Shown here piece after piece: positions 1-37,216 of a stretch of DNA of 64,000 bases (the first letter of the stretch is position 1; the number at the start of each line of letters is the position of its first letter). A model generated the notes under the pieces. It ran no database searches, was not told the DNA's origin, and worked only from the letters and a program-made list of their open reading frames with translations. A program made the position numbers and the translations under genes. Source of the DNA: Crambe crambe (taxonomy: Eukaryota > Porifera > Demospongiae > Poecilosclerida > Crambeidae); NCBI GenBank assembly GCA_963924555.1, contig OZ004597.1, forward strand, positions 558,001 to 622,000. The letters run 5' to 3'.

Positions 1-660
1 GAATGTGGTCACATAGAGAGTCATTATGGTCTGTACATACATACCTGGTCTTCATCCATTCTGTCTTGGTAGAATAGATTCTCCTCTTCATTCTCCTCTC
101 CTTCAAAATCCTCATATGAGTCAGAGTCTGAGTAATTTTCTTCTTCAATCTCTTCTCTCACTACTTTAAAATTATCATCATCTGAGAGTGCTCTCATTAA
201 ACCATAACCCTCGCTAGATTCATTGCTCCAGTCATCGTCATCATCATCATCATCATCATCATCGTCACCCCCTGCAAAGCTACATCTTTTCATCAGAATC
301 CCTGTCACATGACAATGGGAGAATCAAACAAAATAACAGACATGATGGAACGTCACAAGAACAAACCTTCCATTGATGACTTCTTTATGATACTTGCTGC
401 TGCTTGTTCCTTCACAGGCGCCTGGAAGTATTTGATATTAATTTTGTTTTGAGTTACTTTTGTTAAGAACAGCTCATAATGTATTAAGTACTACCTTTTT
501 AAGAGCAGCTCCAAGTTTGATTTCTTGCAGGAGTCCACCTCGTCCACCACCACCACCACCTGTAGATCTCATTTTAGGAGCACCAAGTTTAGCATCTTGC
601 ATGCTAAGTTTCATCCTTCCCTTCTTTCCTTTCACCAGTGAGAACTCTGAACTATCTCGT

Positions 661-692
<32 letters not shown>

Positions 693-2394
693 TAGCTCAC
701 CACCAGCACTTCCAAATAATGCTGATCGTGGCACTTGATGTGCAGATGATGATGCTAATCTATATAGTGTGTGTGTTGGCTTTTGTTTGAACAGACTAGA
801 TACTGGTGGTGGCGGCGGTGGTGGTGGTGACCCTTGTGTAAGTTTCTGTTGTGCAGATATTGGTGGTGGTGGCGGTCCTCCAAAACCTCCCCCAAGACCT
901 CCACCAACCGATGCTAATAGAAGTGGTGATGCTCGTAGTGGGAGTGGAGGTGGTGCCCCTGGTGCTTGTGGTGGGGGTGGAGGTGGTGCCCCCGATGCTC
1001 GTGGTGGGGGTGGAGGTGGTGCCCCTGGTGCTCGTGGTGGGGGCGGAGGTGGTGCTCCTAGTGTAGGTGGTGCTTGTCGTAGTGGGGGTAGAGCTCGATC
1101 TGAGAGGCGACGTCGACGTGGGGGTAGTACTCGTTGAGTTGCTGATTGAGATGAGAGTGGCATCCCAAAAAGTGACCCTGGTGCCCCTGGTGGGAGTGGC
1201 ATCCCATGAAGTGGCCCTGGTGGGAGTGGCATTGGTGGAAGTGGAGGTGGTTCTCTAAGACTGTTCACTTTTAGTGATAGTGGAACATTATCACACACAC
1301 TTTCCTTAGCGATGAGATCGGAGAAACCTGCAACAAACATCATGTATCAGTGGGCTGGGTTTTGAGACTAGGTGACCACTGAGATCACCAGTGTTCTCCC
1401 CAGCATAACTTAATTAAGCATGGGGCCTTCAAGCCGTCAATAGAATGTACCCTTTGATGTGTGAAACCACCCATATTCCTTCACTAATATTAGGGAGAAT
1501 ACTGCTTACAGTCCAGTTCAAGTCCAGCAGATGGTGAGGTTGGCCTATAAGCAGGCGAGGTTGGGCTATAAGCAGGCGAGGTTGGGCTATAAGCAGGCGA
1601 GGTTGGGCTATAAGCAGGCAAGGTTGGGCTATAAGCAAGCGAAGCAGATGGGGCTGCAGATTTTTCCTCTTCATTCATACCCATCACTTCCAACATGGAC
1701 TGGAGCTCCTCCTCCTGTTCAATGTGGTCTAGGACACTTAATTCATCCTTAGCAACTGGTTTTGCTTTCTTTTTCGATTTCTTTCTCCCTTCCTATAAAG
1801 AAATTACCTCATTACAATATACAGGGACACCAATTCTCAACATACCATTAATGGCTGCTTTGATGGCTTTTCTTCTTGAGGTTTAGGGGCTGCAGGAGAA
1901 GCTCTTTGGAAGGGACTACTGAGGGTGAGGATACCTCTCTTTGACTTGGCCTCATCACCAATGTAAGAGTCTTTCTGACCCATGCCTACCATTACTCCCT
2001 GCAATCAGCATACATACACTGAGTCTTCCCCGTTGATAAGGACTAGACAAAACACACACCTGGTGTCTTGGTCTCCCAACTAGAGTTGGAAACACAGCAC
2101 TCGGGGCATCATCCCCAGCCATACCAGCCTAGCAATGGAGTGTGTGTGTGTCACGGGGTGTGGTTTGAGGTCTTCTGGGAGTTCTTACCTTGATGCTAAA
2201 CATGCCAGTGTCTAAAACCACTACACCCTCCCCTTCATCCTTTTCCCTGTCTCGTTCCCTTGATGATAGACATATGGAGAGGCTATCCAGTGTCTGCATA
2301 AAGAAGCTATCCTCCTCCTCCTCCTCCTCCTCGTTCTTTATCCCCCTTGTTTGTGGACCTTCTCTCTGAGGGGCCCTTGCTGCACGGCCATAAA
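1..2394 (-). CDS. Actin-fragment / CTD-heptad / proline-rich / WH2 chimeric protein (partial; possibly the 3' part of the PARP4 gene)
   Basis: Exons read in frame on the minus strand: 2189 to about 2363-2394, 2060-2128, 1846-1998, about 1507-1790, 495-1336, about 370-410, and about 47-290 with a donor at its end, so the gene continues off the left edge. In order the product has an acidic segment, about 60 residues matching the N-terminus of actin, a Lys-rich linker, five YSPTSPA-like heptads, a long proline-rich stretch with PPPPPP runs, a polyglutamine run, a WH2 motif ([16 protein letters not shown]) and a run of 12 Asp. WH2 motifs bind monomeric actin and proline runs recruit profilin or SH3 proteins, so an actin-regulatory role is inferred. 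The PARP4 exon upstream ends at a TGA that overlaps a perfect GTGAGT donor. A join from that donor stays in frame only with a weaker acceptor near 2363; the better acceptor at 2394 is out of frame with it. Whether this is one gene or two is therefore unresolved. If separate, the first in-frame Met is at 2299. Confidence 0.6.
495..542 (-). other. WH2 actin-binding motif
   Basis: Sixteen codons give the pattern R-x-x-L-L-x-x-I-x-x-G-x-x-L-K-K, the WH2 consensus seen in WIP and WASP proteins. It lies directly after the proline-rich and polyglutamine region and ends at a splice donor. The next exon continues with a short Lys/Ser segment and then the poly-Asp tail. Confidence 0.75.
661..694 (-). 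repeat. CAG/CTG trinucleotide repeat encoding polyglutamine
   Basis: A run of about eleven CTG/TTG units on the plus strand codes for a Gln run in the minus-strand exon that carries the proline-rich region and WH2 motif. Confidence 0.85.
1529..1633 (-). repeat. Five RNA-polymerase-II CTD-like heptads (YSPTSPA) encoded by a 21-bp tandem repeat
   Basis: A 21-bp unit repeats five times and encodes YSPTLPA, three YSPTSPA and YRPTSPS. The reading frame matches the surrounding exon. The units are nearly identical at the DNA level, which suggests recent expansion. The resemblance to the Pol II CTD consensus YSPTSPS is direct; function is not implied. Confidence 0.8.
1921..2227 (-). other. Actin N-terminal homology segment (about 61 residues over three exons)
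   Basis: Three consecutive exons, all joined in phase 0, encode a near copy of actin from about residue 7 to 67. Recognisable blocks are [20 protein letters not shown], the D-loop block [17 protein letters not shown] and SKRGILTL. Identity is very high in the last exon. The phosphate-binding loop is altered: actin's DNGSG is DTGMF here. One intron falls exactly between the Gln and Gly equivalent to actin Q41/G42, an intron position known from animal actin genes. The homology stops at the TL before KYPIEHG and the sequence becomes Ser/Pro/Lys-rich. Subdomains 3 and 4 and the rest of the nucleotide cleft are absent, so it cannot be a working actin. Confidence 0.85.
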
Positions 2395-3001: not shown

Positions 3002-3032
<31 letters not shown>

Positions 3033-6000
3033 AAGCAGTTTATCAATGCATGCAACTTTAGCCCCACCACTTTTTGGTTGGATGTGCACTTCTTCCAGAA
3101 ATTTCTTCAGTTTATCAGTGGCATCCTTTAAAAGCATGAAATAATGACAACATAGTCAAAGGGACTGATGTGAGCCTAACCTTCTTTGGGTCAGACGCTT
3201 GATCTAACATCCACCCAATATACTCAAGTTTATCCACCCCTTCTTTGGCCACTAGCTCTTCAATGGAAGGACCCTTCGACTGGTCAAACTTTTCATCCTA
3301 TAAATAAAGAAGTACACTCTTTATTGAAAATGCCAATAACTCACTGACCTTTGTCCTCTCTTCAATGGCTACAAAGCTAGTGAACTGGGAGACAATGGAG
3401 TATTCTTTGCTGATGTTGATGATGTAAGATTTACGATCTCTTTTCACAATCTAGACAGGGAAAAAAATTGATACTTGTAGACTCCAAGATATATTGGAGT
3501 GCTTAAGGACACAATCTAAATACTAACTTCATGTTCCATTTTGTCAGGATCTAAAGATCCATCAGTCCAATCTCTGATTATGGCTCTGGCTGTCAACTGG
3601 TGGAGCATCTAATAATGTTAGCAACAACAACAAAAATCATTTTGAATGGATCAATTTGGTTCTTAATTGTTCACCTGTCCTTTTGTTGTAGCAAGGTCAG
3701 AGGTCGATACCATGGTTTCCACCGCCTTGCTACCTATCTTAGCCTTGAGAGTGGCCTGGTTGCAGTTTGGCACATACCCATACACCACCTGGCGAGACCC
3801 ACTGAACAAGGAGACCAGCTCTTGAGGAGCCTGAGATGGGAAGAGTGAGTAAACTAGGTGGTTTGTTCCTCCCTCCCACCCGGCCTCCATCCTTCACGCT
3901 AGCTCACTTATTTCTTCCTCTCACAAGTAATGGCCATACCTGGATGGGTTTGGGTGCGTCGTCATCATACTGCTGCCACTGGACGTGGACGGAAGTGAGG
4001 GCAGGCTGAAATGCCTTCTCCAACTGGGTCTTCACTTTCCTCTCCCACTTGGACTTGCTCTTTGGGTCAAAGAACTCCACACAGCCAGCGCCAACGTGTG
4101 CCATTGACCGCAGAAAGTGCTTATTTGCAGTGGATCTGTTGGAATTTTGTACCTCAATCAACTGTAGATGGAAGGAGAACTTGCACTTACTCCATTCCAA
4201 AGGTGAAAATCCTTGAGTTCTTCACCCCTCGCCTGATGGTGTCCAGGGTTGGAGCCTCCTCAGTCATGTGACCATCAGATATCAAGAATACTGAACGCGG
4301 TGGGAGTGTACTTGCATCTGCTCCACCCACTTTGGGCGGGGCACTGGATAGGAGATGGAGGGAGTGCAAAGGTCGCCACACATCAGTGCTACCCATGTTT
4401 GCAGAGCATTGCTGAAATTGATAATAAAAACCTTCCATACTTGTTCACCCATTATGCAGAACATACTTGGATGAATTGCTGGGCGGTGTTGAGTGTGTCT
4501 TTAGTTTTAGGAACACTTGATGGAAATAGAACTTCATATGCTGCAAGAGGAAAAAATGGTTTGATGTGACCCTCTCTCTTCTCTTGGATACAATACATAC
4601 CTGCTCCAAATGTGAAGACATTGAAGAGACATTTTTTAGGGAGATGGTGAAGGAGGAGCAGCAAGATCTTCTTGGCATATGTCAATGCTTGTCCCTGTAC
4701 ATGTGATAAATCTAACCAGATGCAGATTACACTTTTTCCCTTCTCACTTACCCTCATGGAGTTGGAGAGATCCAGAAGGAAGATGATTTCATTCTCTGAT
4801 ATGCTGTCAACTTCGAACTCTGGATAAAAGGTCAGCATGCAAGCCTACAGGAATTGGAAAGTATCAAGTTCTTCCTGTACATGCAGTAGTCATAGTAACT
4901 TAGCCTCACATTGTGGCCATGCTTGTTCTCTTCCACCCACATTCGGGGGACATGGATTTCAGCGAGACCAATCAGAAGCTGGAATCCAGTTCCAAGACTG
5001 GAACCGGGACAGAGCTCCACTGTGGCCTTGCTTGCTGTTTTCTGCAGGCAAAAGAGATGCAAGTAAGAACTATAGCTATGCTACAGTGAATCCATTTGAG
5101 CTCTTCATACCTTCATCTTTATTTTGTGAGTTGGAGATTCGATGTTTTTGATCTCGAAGGGCATTTCCACTGAGATTTGAATGGAGAGGTTCTTGCTACA
5201 ATGCAGGGGGTTTAGAATGTATCATGTGATAAGGTTCTTGCTACAATCCAGGGGGTATAGAAAGTATCATTTTTGATAGGGTTTCTCATTCAGACTCACC
5301 TCTCCTTCTGAACTTTGACCTTTTCTACATCAGTCTGAGTGGTCTCATCCAGGGCTGCTTCTTGTTTCCATGGCGCCACTGAACCAGGCAGGGAGAATAA
5401 GACATGTTCCCCTTCCACTGCCAGTTCGGCAACGTAGGTGATCTTAATGAGCACACTAGCTCCAGGAGGCAAATTCCCAACACTAACAGTGAACACATCC
5501 TATAAATGGAGAAAGAAGACATGAATCCTTCAATTTCATCATAGTCATGATACATACAGGAGTCTCTTCATCCATGAGATAAGCTCCATGGCCCTTGGAG
5601 ATGGCCTCCTTGTACTCTTTGTGTGCCTGTTCCTTCTCCTTGACTTGTCCCACGATGTGCTTGCCATTGATGAAAGCCTCAAAGCCACAAACAGCTGCCA
5701 TGTCATCCAGGGGGAAGACGTACTTGGCCTCTATAGGGATGGTGCTGTTGTTCTTGTATCCCTGTAGCACCACCACCTTGGCCGCTAGGTCCATCAGTTC
5801 TGCCCGAATGTGGACAGACTGGAGGGGAACATCTGCCCCCTCGGCTTGTAGCCCTGCCTTCACCTTATCCAAGGGATCTGATATGTTCTGAATGTCACCA
5901 ATGGACACTAGAAAAATAAAATAAATTATCCATGAAAGGTGATACCATATAATTGGACATCTCTCAAATACATTTTTCTGTGGGAGTGTCTTCATTATCA

Positions 6001-9000
6001 TTAGCTGTCATTTCATCCTCTCCTTCTTTCTTTTCTTCTCCTTTTGCTTCTTCTTCTTCTTCTTCCCTGCCAGCCTCCTCGTCTCCAGGGAGACTGAACT
6101 CGACTAGATATTGCATGCATTGCTGATGTTGATTGTACACCACATACTCTGCAGACTGCAAAAGGGATAAATGTAACTGTATCATTGTCCCCTAACCTCC
6201 ATACCTTAAAGAAGGATTCCACCTCCTCAGTAGACCCCACCCCCTTCACACTGTGGTACCCATCAGGTGCCTCACTCAGTTCTTTCATCTGTACTGTGTA
6301 CTCCTGCACATGACATCAATTAGTGGACTAATATCCAGGGAGATCCCCACCAAGTTGGCTTACTTTACAGTTTCCCAAAGCAACTTCATTGACGAGCATT
6401 AGGCGTGTTCTTCGTCCATTTTTACCAGCTTTAGAATACTTGCAGGACAAGCTGTAGTAGGCATTATCACATGTAGCTCGTAGGCATGATCATGTGACTA
6501 TCACATGTAGCTCACAACAGCTGGCTCACCTTGAAGATCCAGCAAAGTATATCCCAGAGCCAAGCATGCCCGGGTCAGATCTGGTTCCTCCAAAGTCATC
6601 CACCACTATCTTGGGCAGTAGCAGACCCCTGGAATTAGTGAGACCAACCTACCATCAAAACTCCCTACAGGAACCTTCTCAACCAGGTAAGTGCTCCTTA
6701 GAGGAACCTTCTTAGAGTGACCTTCTTAACCAGGTAAATGGTCAAGGACTCCTTGAGGAACCTTCTTAGAGTGACCTTCTTAACAACCTGGTCAATGCTC
6801 ATAGGACTCCTTGAGGAACCTTCTTAGAGTGACCTTCTTAACAGGTCAATGCTCATAGGACTCCTTGAGGAACCTTCTTAGAGTGACCTTCTTAACAGGT
6901 CAATGCTCATAGGACTCCTTGAGGAACCTTCTTAGAGTGACCTTCTTAACAACCTGGTCAATGCTCATAGGACTCCTTGAGGAACCTTCTTAGAGTGACC
7001 TTCTTAACAGGTCAATGCTCATAGGACTCCTTGAGGAACCTTCTTAGAGTGACCTTCTTAACAACCTGGTCAATGCTCATAGGACTCCTTGAGGAACTTT
7101 CTTAGAGTGACCTTCTTAACAGGTCAATGCTCATAGGACTCCTTGAGGAACCTTCTTAGAGTGACCTTCTTAACAACCTGGTCAATGCTCATAGGACTCC
7201 TTGAGGAACCTTCTTGGAGTGACCTTCTTAACCAGGTAAATGCTCACCTTGACAGTATCCCTACAAAGTTTTTGACTTGTGAGGAATGGAAGAGCAGCTG
7301 CTTGTTGTCTATGGAGTGAGTAAAGGCACTTTGTTCCACTGCACGGTGAACTGAGTATATGGTCTTTACAGTCAATGGCTCACAAATAGAACTAAAAGTA
7401 AAGGAGAATGTGTCAAAAAAGTTTTAGCATAAAGGACCTTTTCTAAGTCTTACTCGTCTTGACTATTGACGATGTGGTCTCTGATGCTGGTATACTCTAA
7501 TGAAGAAGCATCTAAGTGTTTGATTTCACAGCGCAGTGCTCGATACTTGGCCTCAGGGCCTGAACGAGCCATCCAATTGGTGGACTCACTGACTGCCACC
7601 ATGTCTCTGATCAATTGGCAAAGGTCTTGCTTCTGTGCAATGAGACGGAGGCTAGAGATTGATGTGTTCTGCGACGTTCCAGGTTTGTGAGGAAGTGCGG
7701 AATAGAATGCCTGTGAATGGGTGCTGATGTCAGCATCTTTAAAGGAGAAAACGTGAAACAAGTCTTAATGTTTGATTTCCTATTTTATACCACAGACAGG
7801 ATAACCATTTGGAAGTACACAGACACGTGTACATAATTGGACTGTACCATGATACAGCTGCTACATGGCTTACTTTCAATTTGAAATAGGACTTAATTCA
7901 CTTAGCAGGGATATGTACCTTGTTTGGTCTCTTCCTGGAGTAGCCTTTTTATGGTGAGTAGGGAAGCCTCAGCTTTATCCAGTTGCTCCACTTTGATGGT
8001 ACTGACAGGCACGGCAAGGACATCTTCCAGCTGTCCACTTGCTTCACTCCAAATGTAGTCCACCAGCTCTATGACCTCAGGGTCGATGGATGTCCCCGAC
8101 AGATCAGTACTTCTAGTCTCAGACATGAACTGTGGAGGAACACACACATTGAGTTGAAGAAGGTCCAGGGTTCTTCAACATTGTAGGTGTACCTTTTGGA
8201 GGAGAGGGGAGCCGACTTGGGGGGAGATGAAGGAGACCTTGGTGAGGGAGTGAGGGGAAAAGGTGTACTGGTGGTGGAGCTGCGTGTAGATATGTTCCAC
8301 ATCCAGTGCTGATGTAGCATAGCGACACTCTTTCTTCCCCATAGTTCCAGTCTGTAATCAAACACTGAAAACTTAACCCCAACCCCCTAACCAAATAATC
8401 CCTGACCTTTGCATCTCGATTCTCCAGCACTCCAGTGTGAGAGAACACTCGAAACCTTGGTCCTTCAGAGCTGCCAGCAGCTGCTGCTTCTTCAGGAACT
8501 ACATGAATCTCTAGACTGGCAAAGGAGGTCTTCTGAGATCGAGGGTCGTATTTCTGGTGGATTGAATGAGTAGTTATGGGAGAGTTAGTGGAGGAGATTG
8601 CCTCACCTTGAGGAATGAGTATCTTGCTATATCATAGTTATCCTCACTGAAGTCAACATCGTGATGAGGCCAAGACCACACCCTATATTCAATAGGACAG
8701 TATGTATGGGAGGTAGTAGGACAGTATTAGAGTAGGACACTATTAGAGGGAGGTAGTAGGACAATATTAGAGGGAGGTAGTAGGACAGTATTAAGTGTAG
8801 TAGGACAATATTAGGGAGGTAGTAGGACAGTATTAGAGGGGGTAGTAGGACAGTATTAGAGAGGAGGTAGTAGGACAGTATTAGAGGGAGGTAGTAGTAG
8901 GACAGTATTAGAGAGGAGGTAGAGGTTAACATACTTCAGTTGATTCATGTTAATAGATGATTTTGGTTTCTTTTTCTTTTTGTTAGTGTTTGCTTTATCT

Positions 9001-9531
9001 TGTATGGAAGCTGTAAGTAATGATAATTAATAACATTAAGATTCCTTTTTGGTTTCAATCACGACAACAACACTCACAACACTCACCTACAATCTTGCCA
9101 GTACTAAACTCCATGGCAGCAGTCTTCCCCACTACTATATAAGCATCTGCCTCTAGGAGTTTCCCCGTCTCTACACACTGATGAATGAAGTCTACAGAGA
9201 CGACTGGCACACCCCACTTCCTGGCCATGCGACTCTTGTATGAGTCCTGCGCTTTCTCCACATTGTTTACCACCAAGTGAGTCGTCTGCATAAACAGTTC
9301 AGGAAATAATAATCACATGACAACAAGTTAACATCAGGAGATAACCCTAGGCCTAACCCTAGCCCCAAAGCTCAGAACAAGGCTGTAACTACTGATGAGT
9401 ACCTTGTTGGTGACTATGAATGAGATTATGCCTCCATTTTCTGTCACTTTCTTCTTCAGTTCCAACTTTGCCTTAAAACGAATTGAGGAGTCCAGATCAA
9501 GGGTGATTTGGCAATGGTCAAACACTCCCAT
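2627..9531 (-). CDS. PARP4: Vault poly(ADP-ribose) polymerase, PARP4-like
   Basis: The multi-exon gene starts at Met 9531 (MGVFDHCQITLDLD). First come a BRCT domain (exons 9403-9531 and 9087-9285, with the W-V-x-FI-x-C-x-E pattern) and a Lys-rich linker. Next is a region resembling the PARP4 pre-catalytic segment (about 8406-8680), then the PARP helical and catalytic domains (about 6200-8130). The H-Y-E triad typical of a true polymerase is visible: His in LLFHSS (near 7295), Tyr in GSGIYFAG (near 6550), Glu in SAEYVVYNQ (near 6150). A VIT domain (about 5300-5910) is extremely close to vertebrate PARP4 (AAVCGFEAFINGKHIVG). The vWA domain (about 3350-4840) has the MIDAS motif DLSNS. A helical tail follows (about 2627-3300) and ends at a TGA embedded in a perfect splice donor, so the gene may continue into the chimeric exons to the left. 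PARP4 is the ADP-ribosylating subunit of vault particles. Confidence 0.92.
2781..2840. repeat. (GA)n microsatellite, about 30 units, in a PARP4 intron
   Basis: Uninterrupted GA dinucleotides lie just upstream, in the minus-strand sense, of the exon beginning VVKELL. Read on the minus strand the tract is TC-rich and serves as the polypyrimidine tract of that exon's acceptor. Confidence 0.95.
3003..3029. repeat. Poly-C homopolymer in a PARP4 intron
   Basis: A run of about 27 C on the plus strand lies in the intron after the exon encoding DATDKLKKFLEEVHIQPKS. The true tract length is likely uncertain in an assembly. Confidence 0.9.
6690..7240. repeat. Intronic minisatellite, about nine copies of a 56-66 bp unit
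   Basis: The unit contains GGACTCCTTGAGGAACC and TTAGAGTGACCTTCTTAAC, in two length variants that differ by an ACCT-containing insertion. It fills the PARP4 intron between the exons holding the catalytic His and Tyr. Copies are nearly identical, with single changes such as AACTTTC near 7095. The outer copies carry AACCAGGTAA, resembling the exon-edge sequence at 6686, so the array probably grew from an intron edge. Confidence 0.9.
8695..8932. repeat. Intronic minisatellite, GTAGGACAGTATTAGAG units
   Basis: About ten imperfect copies of a 24-28 bp unit lie in the PARP4 intron between the Lys-rich linker exon and the exon encoding VWSWPHHDVDF. Copies differ by small deletions, as expected for replication slippage. 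Confidence 0.9.
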
Positions 9532-33545: not shown

Positions 33546-33826
33546 AATATAAGCAATAATTATCAGCTAGCTATTTATAGAGCAACCATTACGCAATGGC
33601 CATATGGGAATCTCCCAATTAATAATATTGACCGAAGATTATGCTTCGTACGAACGATCGTTCCTTCTGCCATAGCACTTTCTGAACTGCTTACAATTAT
33701 CGGTAAGCTATTAGCTAGCTAAATGCACACTTAACAGCTAGGTAGGGCTTTGCTAGATAGCAAGTACGGCAGCTATGGTAGCTCTCCATGTGTACGTGTG
33801 TGTACGTGTAGGTTGTTCTCGGGCGA
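33546..33826. promoter_or_regulatory. Intergenic region upstream of the A20 homologue
   Basis: 281 bp between MRH receptor C and the A20 start codon, presumably holding the A20 promoter and 5' UTR. It includes GTACGTGTGTGTACGTGTAG just before the ATG, which ends in a possible acceptor (TGTAG), so a 5' untranslated exon is possible. I see no clear NF-kappaB site. Confidence 0.4.
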
Positions 33827-36800
33827 ATGGCAGCCTATCCTAACCAGCCTCCCATGAGCCCCGAGGGGAGGGGATCTTCACTTCAGAGTGGGTTCTCTCC
33901 AGGACCAGGGGTTGGAAATTACCCCCAAGATCATGTTCCAGGCACCATGTCAATCCCCAAAAGTATCTCCACTACCAATTTGGAAACAACAGGACGATGT
34001 AGAGAGGTAATTGCCAGGGACTTGGACCCAAATCCCCCTGTTGCAGGGACAGTTTGTTTTAGAAGCACTCCTGGATTCACCCTCACTCTGCCAGATCTGA
34101 GTAGCTACCCTCCAGAGTTCAAGGAGTTTGTGTTCAATATACTTATTGATAAACCCACCCAGCGATCTCTGGAGGAGGAGGGTGTCCTCAATTGGTGTAG
34201 CACAGTTACTAAACTGGTCCCGATCAAGACCCTTCCCGACGGCAACTGCCTTCTGCATGCTGCCTCTCTGGGAATGTGGGGCTTCCAAGACAGAAACCTC
34301 ACACTACGCAAGGCATTGTCTGATGGTTTGATGTGTCAAACTCAAAACACATTCTATGATCGATGGAGACATGACCAAGAGTTTGAAAACCAGCGCATGA
34401 ACATCCAAATGGAGCCACATCAATGGGAGAAGGAATGGGACGGTATGGTCCGTCAGACAATGACAAATGTCCCAATAGGTCAAAATCTCGAAAGCCTGGA
34501 TAACTTCCACGTATTTGTCCTTGCAAATATTATTCGTCGTCCAATCATCTTGTACGCTTCGCCCAAGATTCGCTCTTTGCAGGGAGGAGGCACTCTTCAG
34601 ACCTGCAACTTTCATGGGGTGTACCTCCCCCTGTTATGGGATCCCACTGTTTGCAAGAGGGACCCACTCCCTCTTGCCTACTGCGGTGGCCATTTTTCTG
34701 CCTTGGTTGTCATAGAAGCCCCGGGTCAGTTCAAGAATGGGCAATTTATCCTTCCTTTGGTTGACTCACAAGGGCAACAGCTTCCCATCAAGTTCACTCT
34801 GCCAGTGGAGGACCACATGACACTCCTGAGAGATTATCTGGACCTCATTCAAACCGTGTATAGAGACAACTCACCTTATATCAATTCCAAACACATAATC
34901 TCTACAAAGCTTGCAGTATTTGACATACCAGCTTACCTCAAGCCACTCATTTCTGGTTTTATTGAAGCTTGTTGGGATGCCTATGGAAAGAGGGCAGGAA
35001 ACAGGCAAACTTCTTCGTATGATCCACCTGGAAGAGAGAACAGGGGGGTTGCCGGGGGAGAAGGGGGGAGGGAGGAGAATCCACCAAAGTGCATAAATAA
35101 TTGTGGGCTGTATGGCAATCCTGATACTGCTTACATGTGTTCCGGGTGTTTCCGCAAACATCAGCAAAAACAGCGAGAAGAAGAGCAGGGCAGAGAACAG
35201 GGAAGACAAGAGAGCCAACAGCAGTATGGAGACCAGTCCCAGTTTGGGAACCGTGGAGGTGGTGGGGGAGGAAGTGGAGGAGGCTCTGTCATGTGTCCAA
35301 AGTGCTCAAAGCCAGGATTCCCCAAACTATTGGGGATGTGTGAGCAGTGTTACCATCACAACACTGGTGGTGGTGGTGGTGGTGGTGGAGGTGGAGGTTC
35401 TTCACAGAGGCAAGACCCCATTTATGAGATGCTTCCCAACGAGGCTGGTGGGTTGATGGGCATGGGGCAATTCGATGACCCTCCTCCCCTCCCATTCCCA
35501 CGGGACCCTGAAGAGAGGAGCAAATGTCGGAGGCCAGGCTGTGATTTCTATGGCACCATCGAGTCACGTTACTACTGTTCAAGGTGCTTTGAGAAGAACA
35601 TGGACAAGATCTTGAAAGAAGCAGATGAAGGTCCTCCAATACCAATTCCTCACCTGGATGACGCCTTTCTCCCTAACACTCATGCCAATTTTGGTCAGGA
35701 CTTGGGACCACAACCACACTTTCCTATCTCTGGACAGGAGCAGGGGGGGCACGAGCCTCCAAAGTGCTTCAAGTGTCAGAATTTTTTTGGGAACGAAGAA
35801 TACCACGGTTTGTGTCACGGATGTTTTTTGAACACCTTAAAGACAGACGGTGAGTTTCCTCAGCATTCACCAGTAGTTTCCGGCAGACCAGGAGGGGCTC
35901 ACACGACATCACACCCACGACAGTACCAAGACCACACCTCCTCCTCCTCCTCCTCCCATAACCATGACCCCAGTGGGGCGTGGGAGCCCTACCAGAATAG
36001 GCAAGGGCCAAATGAGCAACAAAGATTCAATACTGGAGCACCATCTCGCATGGTGAATGCAACAGCACCCATAGCCAATCTATCTTCCCAAATGGCTGAC
36101 ATGAGTGTGAAACCCAACTCGTGCTTTGTCTGTCAAGGAGGTCAAATGCAAACGGGAGACTCATCAAGTTACGTTGTGTGTGCCAAACATGCAGCAAGGA
36201 TGTCCCAAATGATCACACGTCTCGAGAGTGATGAAGGCGGTGAAGAGGTGAGGAGCAAACCAACTCCTCATCAAAGGCAGGATCAAAGACAGGGGTTCCA
36301 ACGGAATTCTGATGCTCAGCTCAACAGATTTGATGACTACAGGGAGAACTTTGGAGAGAGAGGTCACCCTCCATACACCCAGCAAGGAGGAGATAATCCG
36401 GATCAGAGAGGTCGCCCTCCGTACACCCAGCAAGGAGGAAATGGTCCTGACCACCCTCCGTACACCCAGCAAGGAGGAAATGGTCCTGGCCACCCTCCGT
36501 ACACCCAGCAAGGAGGAAATGGTCCAGGTCACCCTCTGTACACCCAGCAAGGAGGAGAAGGAAGAGGTGAGATATATCGAAGAGAGAGTGACACTGATAT
36601 GAGAAGAGGTGGCAAGTATGATGGTTATCAACCAGCTGGAGGGGCTCCTATTGGTGGCCTCAAAGGGAACCAAGATCCTGTTTATGACCAGGGACATCGT
36701 CACCCCTACCCCCAGCAAGGAGGCAAGTATCAAGGTGGTGCTGAGTGGGAGTCTCGTCAAACTGATCCAGGTCAGTTGGAGGCCCAGCAGCGACAACACC

Positions 36801-37216
36801 CACCAGGCAACAGTCGTGACCAATGGGAAGCCCAGCATCAACGACCACACCCACAAGGCAACAGTCGTGATCAATGGGAGAGCCAGCATCAACAACCACG
36901 CCCACAAGACAACAGTCGTGACCAATGGGAGCCCCATCATCAGCACCCACATCATGCAAGACATCACACTAATGAACGCCATCAAGATGGAAGAGATATA
37001 GCAGACATCAATAATGAAGAAGGGCCTATGGGTGGGGCAGTGGGAGGGGCCACAGGGAGCACTGTCACTCCACCTGTACGTGTGAAGGCCTTGTGTGCCA
37101 TAGCAGGTTGTTCCTTCAAAGGATATGCAGACTTGGAAAATCTTTGTCCTGACTGCTACATAGAGCGTTACCCAAAATTTGCAATTGAAGTAGAAAAGAA
37201 ATATCCTTTGGTGTAA
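33827..37216 (+). CDS. TNFAIP3: A20/TNFAIP3-like ubiquitin-editing enzyme (OTU plus six A20-type zinc fingers)
   Basis: A single uninterrupted 1129-codon exon, unusual among its intron-rich neighbours. The OTU domain spans about residues 120-345: catalytic Cys141 in LPDGNCLLHAAS, then MWGFQDRNLTLRKAL, DNFHVFVLANIIRRPII and catalytic His289 in GGHFSALVV. This block order is that of A20 rather than Cezanne. A20-type zinc fingers (C-x2-4-C-x11-C-x2-C) start near 422, 490, 567 and 647; a fifth variant is near 770 (CFVCQGG...CAKHA) and a sixth near 1090 (CAIAGC...LCPDC). Low-complexity linkers separate them, including poly-Gly runs and five PPYTQQGG repeats (about 845-910). In vertebrates A20 removes K63 chains and restrains NF-kappaB signalling. 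AATAAA at 37348-37353 is a candidate poly(A) signal. Confidence 0.93.
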   Translation: MAAYPNQPPMSPEGRGSSLQSGFSPGPGVGNYPQDHVPGTMSIPKSISTTNLETTGRCREVIARDLDPNPPVAGTVCFRSTPGFTLTLPDLSSYPPEFKEFVFNILIDKPTQRSLEEEGVLNWCSTVTKLVPIKTLPDGNCLLHAASLGMWGFQDRNLTLRKALSDGLMCQTQNTFYDRWRHDQEFENQRMNIQMEPHQWEKEWDGMVRQTMTNVPIGQNLESLDNFHVFVLANIIRRPIILYASPKIRSLQGGGTLQTCNFHGVYLPLLWDPTVCKRDPLPLAYCGGHFSALVVIEAPGQFKNGQFILPLVDSQGQQLPIKFTLPVEDHMTLLRDYLDLIQTVYRDNSPYINSKHIISTKLAVFDIPAYLKPLISGFIEACWDAYGKRAGNRQTSSYDPPGRENRGVAGGEGGREENPPKCINNCGLYGNPDTAYMCSGCFRKHQQKQREEEQGREQGRQESQQQYGDQSQFGNRGGGGGGSGGGSVMCPKCSKPGFPKLLGMCEQCYHHNTGGGGGGGGGGGSSQRQDPIYEMLPNEAGGLMGMGQFDDPPPLPFPRDPEERSKCRRPGCDFYGTIESRYYCSRCFEKNMDKILKEADEGPPIPIPHLDDAFLPNTHANFGQDLGPQPHFPISGQEQGGHEPPKCFKCQNFFGNEEYHGLCHGCFLNTLKTDGEFPQHSPVVSGRPGGAHTTSHPRQYQDHTSSSSSSHNHDPSGAWEPYQNRQGPNEQQRFNTGAPSRMVNATAPIANLSSQMADMSVKPNSCFVCQGGQMQTGDSSSYVVCAKHAARMSQMITRLESDEGGEEVRSKPTPHQRQDQRQGFQRNSDAQLNRFDDYRENFGERGHPPYTQQGGDNPDQRGRPPYTQQGGNGPDHPPYTQQGGNGPGHPPYTQQGGNGPGHPLYTQQGGEGRGEIYRRESDTDMRRGGKYDGYQPAGGAPIGGLKGNQDPVYDQGHRHPYPQQGGKYQGGAEWESRQTDPGQLEAQQRQHPPGNSRDQWEAQHQRPHPQGNSRDQWESQHQQPRPQDNSRDQWEPHHQHPHHARHHTNERHQDGRDIADINNEEGPMGGAVGGATGSTVTPPVRVKALCAIAGCSFKGYADLENLCPDCYIERYPKFAIEVEKKYPLV
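36361..36555 (+). repeat. Coding repeat in the A20 homologue (PPYTQQGG units)
   Basis: Five copies of a 39-45 bp unit encode HPPYTQQGGNGPG-like modules between zinc fingers five and six. The DNA of the inner copies is nearly identical. Downstream a second repeat encodes NSRDQWE plus HPxG units. Confidence 0.85.

Follow-up and report, generated by a model that had tools for sequence, protein, structure and literature searches.

POTE-actin is a natural actin fusion, and both in it and in filactin of Dictyostelium the actin domain is far more complete than the piece from the sponge Crambe crambe that is described here. Filactin is likewise a natural fusion, in which a long extension precedes the N-terminus of a conventional actin (PMC2441452). 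Actin has also been paired with vault PARPs. According to the text on this group, the PARP4-like proteins of Salpingoeca rosetta, Capsaspora owczarzaki and Acanthamoeba castellanii contain actin or actin-binding domains (Perina et al., 2014; PMC4245714).

The Crambe gene resembles these proteins in joining a clade 5 (vault) PARP to an actin or actin-binding part, which is C-terminal in some of them. Unlike for the Crambe gene, the passages concerned give the domains by name only, with no truncation to residues 7–67, lost nucleotide loop, exon anatomy, WH2-acidic stretch or MINT domain (PMC4245714). A first-pass annotation, made from the DNA alone, had taken the combination to be one not known before; the pairing of PARP4 with actin was already in print. 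In the openly licensed literature we found no description of a truncated, D-loop-keeping actin with WH2-acidic and MINT parts. Searches of the same literature returned only papers unrelated by title for PARP4 with WH2, and nothing for the MINT domain with PARP4 and vault. The passages of Citarelli 2010 that were consulted make no mention of the protein actin (PMC2964712).

The predicted PARP4 gene and its linker

The window is the whole analysed stretch of 64,000 nucleotides, and its features are listed in Table 1. By its domain content the gene is a PARP4 (vault PARP) orthologue that looks intact. It lies on the minus strand, and the model extends up to 9285.

Table 1. Parts of the predicted PARP4 gene, in order of the protein chain. 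Positions are those of the window, except for the MINT exons, which lie outside it on the same contig (C20) and carry contig positions.
Feature	Position	Strand	Content
BRCT, PARP regulatory and PARP catalytic exons	6205..9285	minus	Approximate model, some exons missing; PARP 91 bits
VIT domain exons	5300..5887	minus	VIT 135.8 bits; human PARP4 608–774, E 7.5e-65
vWA and following region	3181..4819	minus	VWA_3 66.4 bits; human PARP4 870–1126 and 1146–1214
Two joining exons	2778–2630, 2572–2511	minus	Join the post-vWA region to exon A; phases fit
Exon A	2394–2189	minus	3' end (2224–2189) is actin-like, residues 7–18, with altered nucleotide loop; 8 of these 12 are changed relative to host actin
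Exon B	2128–2060	minus	Actin-like residues 19–41; 4 of 23 differ from host actin
Exon C	1998–1846	minus	1998–1921 is actin-like, residues 42–67 with the D-loop, 2 of 26 differ from host actin; then a non-actin Pro/Lys-rich tail to 1846
Exon D	1510..1792	minus	Lys-rich start, then YSPTSPA heptads resembling the RNA polymerase II CTD
Exon E	495..1327	minus	Pro-rich stretches, polyQ, WH2-like motif at the 3' end
Exon F	367..421	minus	Candidate central (C) helix, by eye only; donor GTTTGT
Exon G	45..271	minus	Poly-Asp run closing in Trp (DDDDW), further acidic sequence; likeness to an Arp2/3-binding acidic tail by eye
MINT exons	C20:557887–557858, 557797–557704, 557636–557365	minus	In phase with the window exons; the last ends in a stop

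Domain scores were obtained with Pfam on hand-joined exons of an approximate gene model. On this basis the PARP catalytic domain lies mid-chain, at 91 bits against a cut-off of 26.7. Ahead of it PTCB-BRCT scores 22.8 bits (cut-off 22), while BRCT_2 (24 bits, cut-off 27.3), BRCT (18.9 bits, cut-off 21.3) and the PARP regulatory domain (24 bits, cut-off 26.8) stay under theirs. VIT and vWA domains follow downstream of the PARP domain, each with a match to human PARP4, and the C-terminal MINT domain matches human PARP4 1583–1703 with an E-value of 2.9e-7. The PARP4 chain of PDB 11jf (1724 residues), which we take to be human, is the top match for VIT and, up to its residue 1214, for the vWA with its following region, and it is the sole match for MINT. 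Human PARP4 aligns to the Crambe gene in the PARP-end, VIT, vWA, post-vWA and MINT parts, but is absent among the PDB matches of the Crambe WH2/acidic query at E-values up to 1.

In a search of the genome (143 Mb, 119 contigs) MVP was matched at two places and ARPC4 at one. A second VIT-containing gene (L029, on contig C11) has an open frame of 421 codons. When GTDB genome contigs were scanned for relatives of PARP4 the first query gave none; a shorter one gave two flavobacteria-titled records, whose VIT-like hits were 48 and 41% identical. Among IMG/VR viral contigs there was no match for VIT nor for the actin piece.

Twelve exons, from 2778 to the MINT stop, form one predicted chain that has no earlier stop and ends 636 bases beyond the window. 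Its parts come in the order post-vWA region, actin piece, Pol II CTD-like heptads, Pro-rich stretches, weak WH2, acidic run and MINT. Because this open chain closes with the MINT domain, the actin piece is, as predicted from the exons, inside PARP4, in the linker between vWA and MINT. It had been placed in a single polypeptide next to or within PARP4; the open frame of 12 exons agrees with the single polypeptide, and "within" is the better word, as the chain runs on into MINT. For the same reason we rejected the possibility that PARP4 has an independent actin or WH2 gene as its neighbour. An assembly chimera is unlikely, since both flanks are in frame with PARP4 parts and the site lies within a contig of 6.34 Mb.

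The automatic version of the chain used generic splice weights and a codon usage learned from three long frames within the window. It had exons B to G as given in Table 1, but omitted 2572–2511 and started exon A at 2258, and was replaced by hand in these respects. The donors that close exons A, B and C are GTAAGA, GTGTGT and GTATGT, and the acceptors ahead of them end in CAG, TAG and CAG. Weak donors are found at exon E (GTAGTA) and exon F. The lengths of exons B and C are divisible by three, so skipping them leaves the frame intact. The first exon on the MINT side encodes only LRDIFTAQMK. A (GA)30 run at 2781–2840 stands directly before the acceptor of exon 2778–2630, and a run of 28 C at 3002–3029; both are a possible length-variable splice context in PARP4.

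In the linker after the actin piece, a tandem repeat with a unit of 21 bases (1536–1642, minus strand, about five units) encodes the heptads. These are recognised by Pfam RNA_pol_Rpb1_R at 29.8 bits (cut-off 20.3), a match to the repeat only, the protein not being RPB1, and RPB1 heptads also dominate the matches when a long linker query is compared with the PDB.

The joining of the actin piece to a WH2 motif, also claimed at first, holds in so far as a WH2-like motif stands in the same predicted chain, with the pattern LLxxIxxGxxLKK. The assignment to WH2 itself is weak, at 16.5 bits against a Pfam cut-off of 23.1, and the motif was not among the three WH2 places from the genome search. The top PDB match of the WH2-like part is N-WASP (3m3n) with an E-value of 0.014, and CHRAC-16 reaches the same E-value for the acidic run. 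By eye, the order of a Pro-rich stretch, a WH2-like motif, a short Lys-containing helix candidate and an acidic run with Trp resembles the WCA region of WASP and N-WASP. Unlike in those proteins, the Crambe WH2 is under the Pfam cut-off, only the WH2-like part matches N-WASP with no match for C or A, and the acidic run is not C-terminal, with over 50 further residues between it and MINT.

The actin-like piece

The piece consists of 61 codons corresponding to residues 7–67 of actin, split over 2224–2189, 2128–2060 and 1998–1921 on the minus strand, all in phase 0. Actin chains in the PDB match the spliced piece with E-values down to 1.5e-28 (best 60 of 124 matches), and Pfam Actin scores 50 bits on it against a cut-off of 27; chance similarity to actin is therefore excluded. 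The three in-phase exons with some 60 actin-like residues that the first-pass annotation had described are borne out.

Compared with a host actin, 47 of the 61 residues (77%) are identical. The identity is 43/49 from A19 on, that is in exons B and C, and 4/12 in the first 12 residues. "Almost identical" to actin, as it had been put, is accordingly a fair description of exons B and C and not of the start of the piece. The phosphate loop reads DTGMF where actin has DNGSG, and the piece stops ahead of the KYPIEHG of actin, both as first noted. The complete fold of four subdomains is not there, as residues 7–67 are all that is present.

The remainder of actin had been called missing, and this stands. 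With the 291 residues of the second coding exon of a host actin as query, tblastn over the window plus 10 kb of adjoining sequence gave no E-value better than 0.88. Compared with a conventional actin, the Crambe piece lacks residues 68–375, has a changed nucleotide loop and differs in its introns. A role as a substrate for ADP-ribosylation had been suggested too, and finds no specific support; T148 and R177, known ADP-ribosylation sites of actin, fall in the absent part, outside the retained residues.

Age and constraint

The host's three conventional actins lie on contigs C17 (two) and C19 (one), and each has a first coding exon that is unbroken over residues 7–84. The piece has introns at K18|A19 and Q41|G42, both old actin intron sites, and none of the three conventional actins has an intron at either place. 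A retrogene or a recent duplicate was rejected on these introns and on the high dS.

Over the 61 codons the NG86 method gave dN of 0.20–0.21 and dS of 1.16–1.76 between the piece and the host actins, two of which are identical over the compared codons so that there are two distinct comparisons. The dS from YN00 and LWL85 was 0.91–1.43 (YN00 0.91, two actins only; LWL85 0.93–1.43), and dN across methods 0.20–0.28; values of dS near saturation from 49–61 codons are imprecise. For the 49 codons from A19 on, dN was 0.11–0.19 across methods and 0.11–0.12 with NG86. In 35 codons of this part two host actins agree; relative to them the piece shows 13 synonymous changes, some of which belong to the actin stem, and 2 nonsynonymous ones.

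In simulations of neutral change, at most six amino acid changes in the 49 codons were seen in 81%, 18% and 0.1% of the runs at 0.05, 0.1 and 0.2 substitutions per site, and in none of 2000 runs at 0.35 or 0.5. This excludes neutrality only for a branch of about 0.2 or longer, which is a length that the dS values suggest. Judged from these comparisons the piece looks old and constrained.

The changes are concentrated in the nucleotide-loop part, with 8/12 residues against 6/49 elsewhere (Fisher P 0.0003), and a stretch of 19 residues with the D-loop is unchanged from host actin. Such uneven change would be expected of a protein that relies on subdomain 2 and has no use for nucleotide binding. 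On C17, in contrast, a diverged full-length actin paralogue has lost the canonical D-loop sequence that the piece keeps. This paralogue is one of two side loci noted on the contig (L014 and L027); the other is a decayed copy of actin, interrupted by in-frame stops.

A possible link between vault and actin

In an actin filament, the D-loop of one subunit inserts in the cleft that subdomains 1 and 3 of the following subunit form, and WH2 binds the same cleft. The D-loop surface is on the pointed-end side, and the cleft lies at the barbed end of the following subunit. We propose that the PARP4 linker carries an actin-engaging module that links the vault to actin, and would put the probability of this at roughly 0.45, a little under even. 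The anatomy, the open chain, the homologies and the uneven conservation are observed; that the gene is expressed, and that the linker folds, binds actin and serves in vault tethering, is our inference.

The N-terminal sixth of an actin would have been captured long ago, as genomic exons, into the linker of PARP4. There it would have shed the rest of actin and the ATP-binding loop and retained subdomain 2 with the D-loop. The piece could then present a mimic of the pointed end to actin monomers or barbed ends, and the Pro-rich stretch might be a ligand of profilin or of SH3/EVH1 domains. Together, the actin piece and the Pro-rich, WH2-like and acidic stretches would bind or locally collect actin, with MINT holding the chain on the vault. 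The folding of a 61-residue piece that lacks the rest of subdomain 1 may be doubtful.

Vaults have been described with actin filaments in the neurite tips of PC12 cells (PMC7916137). In reconstituted human vaults, PARP4 is reported to lie inside, with MINT on the wall (PMC13174449). An actin-binding linker would then be hidden, except where a vault opens or where PARP4 is free. A bolder version of the proposal is improbable: in an ancient vault PARP, a D-loop piece and a WH2-like motif would have engaged the same actin cleft while anchored through MINT, the vault would have been an actin-organising particle, and the gene of today would be its living copy.

The alternative that holds up best, although we think it on the unlikely side, is that PARP4 was ancestrally fused to a full actin domain, and that the piece, now cut down, survives as a structural or regulatory relic which does something other than bind actin, for instance serving as a β-rich spacer or giving the WH2-like motif an intramolecular ligand. 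An ancestral fusion is plausible because, for a choanoflagellate, a filasterean and an amoeba, the text cited at the outset names actin or actin-binding domains in PARP4-like proteins (PMC4245714), and introns unlike those of the present conventional host actins also fit an old capture. The D-loop and its surroundings, however, are nearly unchanged and the nucleotide loop has been altered, in better agreement with retained binding than with a spacer.

Quite improbable is a second alternative, in which the piece imitates actin for a reader of subdomain 2 or the D-loop, such as a DNase I-like partner or a MICAL-type oxidase, and acts as a decoy or a recruiting handle. The unchanged 19 residues would suit such a reader, as they cover the two D-loop methionines that are the sites of MICAL oxidation and also the DNase I contact region, but the WH2-like and acidic stretches nearby point to actin or Arp2/3 instead. 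It is very unlikely, finally, that the actin exons were captured recently or by chance and have no function, or that the assembly is chimeric: neutral drift is compatible with a very short branch of 0.05–0.1 substitutions per site (P 0.81 and 0.18), but dS to each of the three conventional host actins is high and the introns differ, the frame is open with phases that fit PARP4 domains on both sides inside the 6.34 Mb contig, and the PARP4 piece has none of the in-frame stops of the decayed actin on C17.

A constrained actin piece that keeps the filament-contacting loop, beside WH2-like and acidic stretches and in one chain with MINT, bears on what vaults and PARP4 do, as it would give a direct link between vault and actin that can be tested. 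If the linker does engage actin through this piece, it would be a rare natural case where only the pointed-end face of actin has been kept and the ATPase part discarded.

Two other reading frames were named by eye. A long phosphofructokinase-like frame lies outside the window, at 6455–8857 (minus strand) of locus L021, and its first ATG is about 130 bases past the PARP4 stop on the same strand. On the plus strand of the window, an unbroken frame of 1134 codons at 33812–37216 appears to encode an OTU and zinc-finger protein of the A20/TNFAIP3 type.
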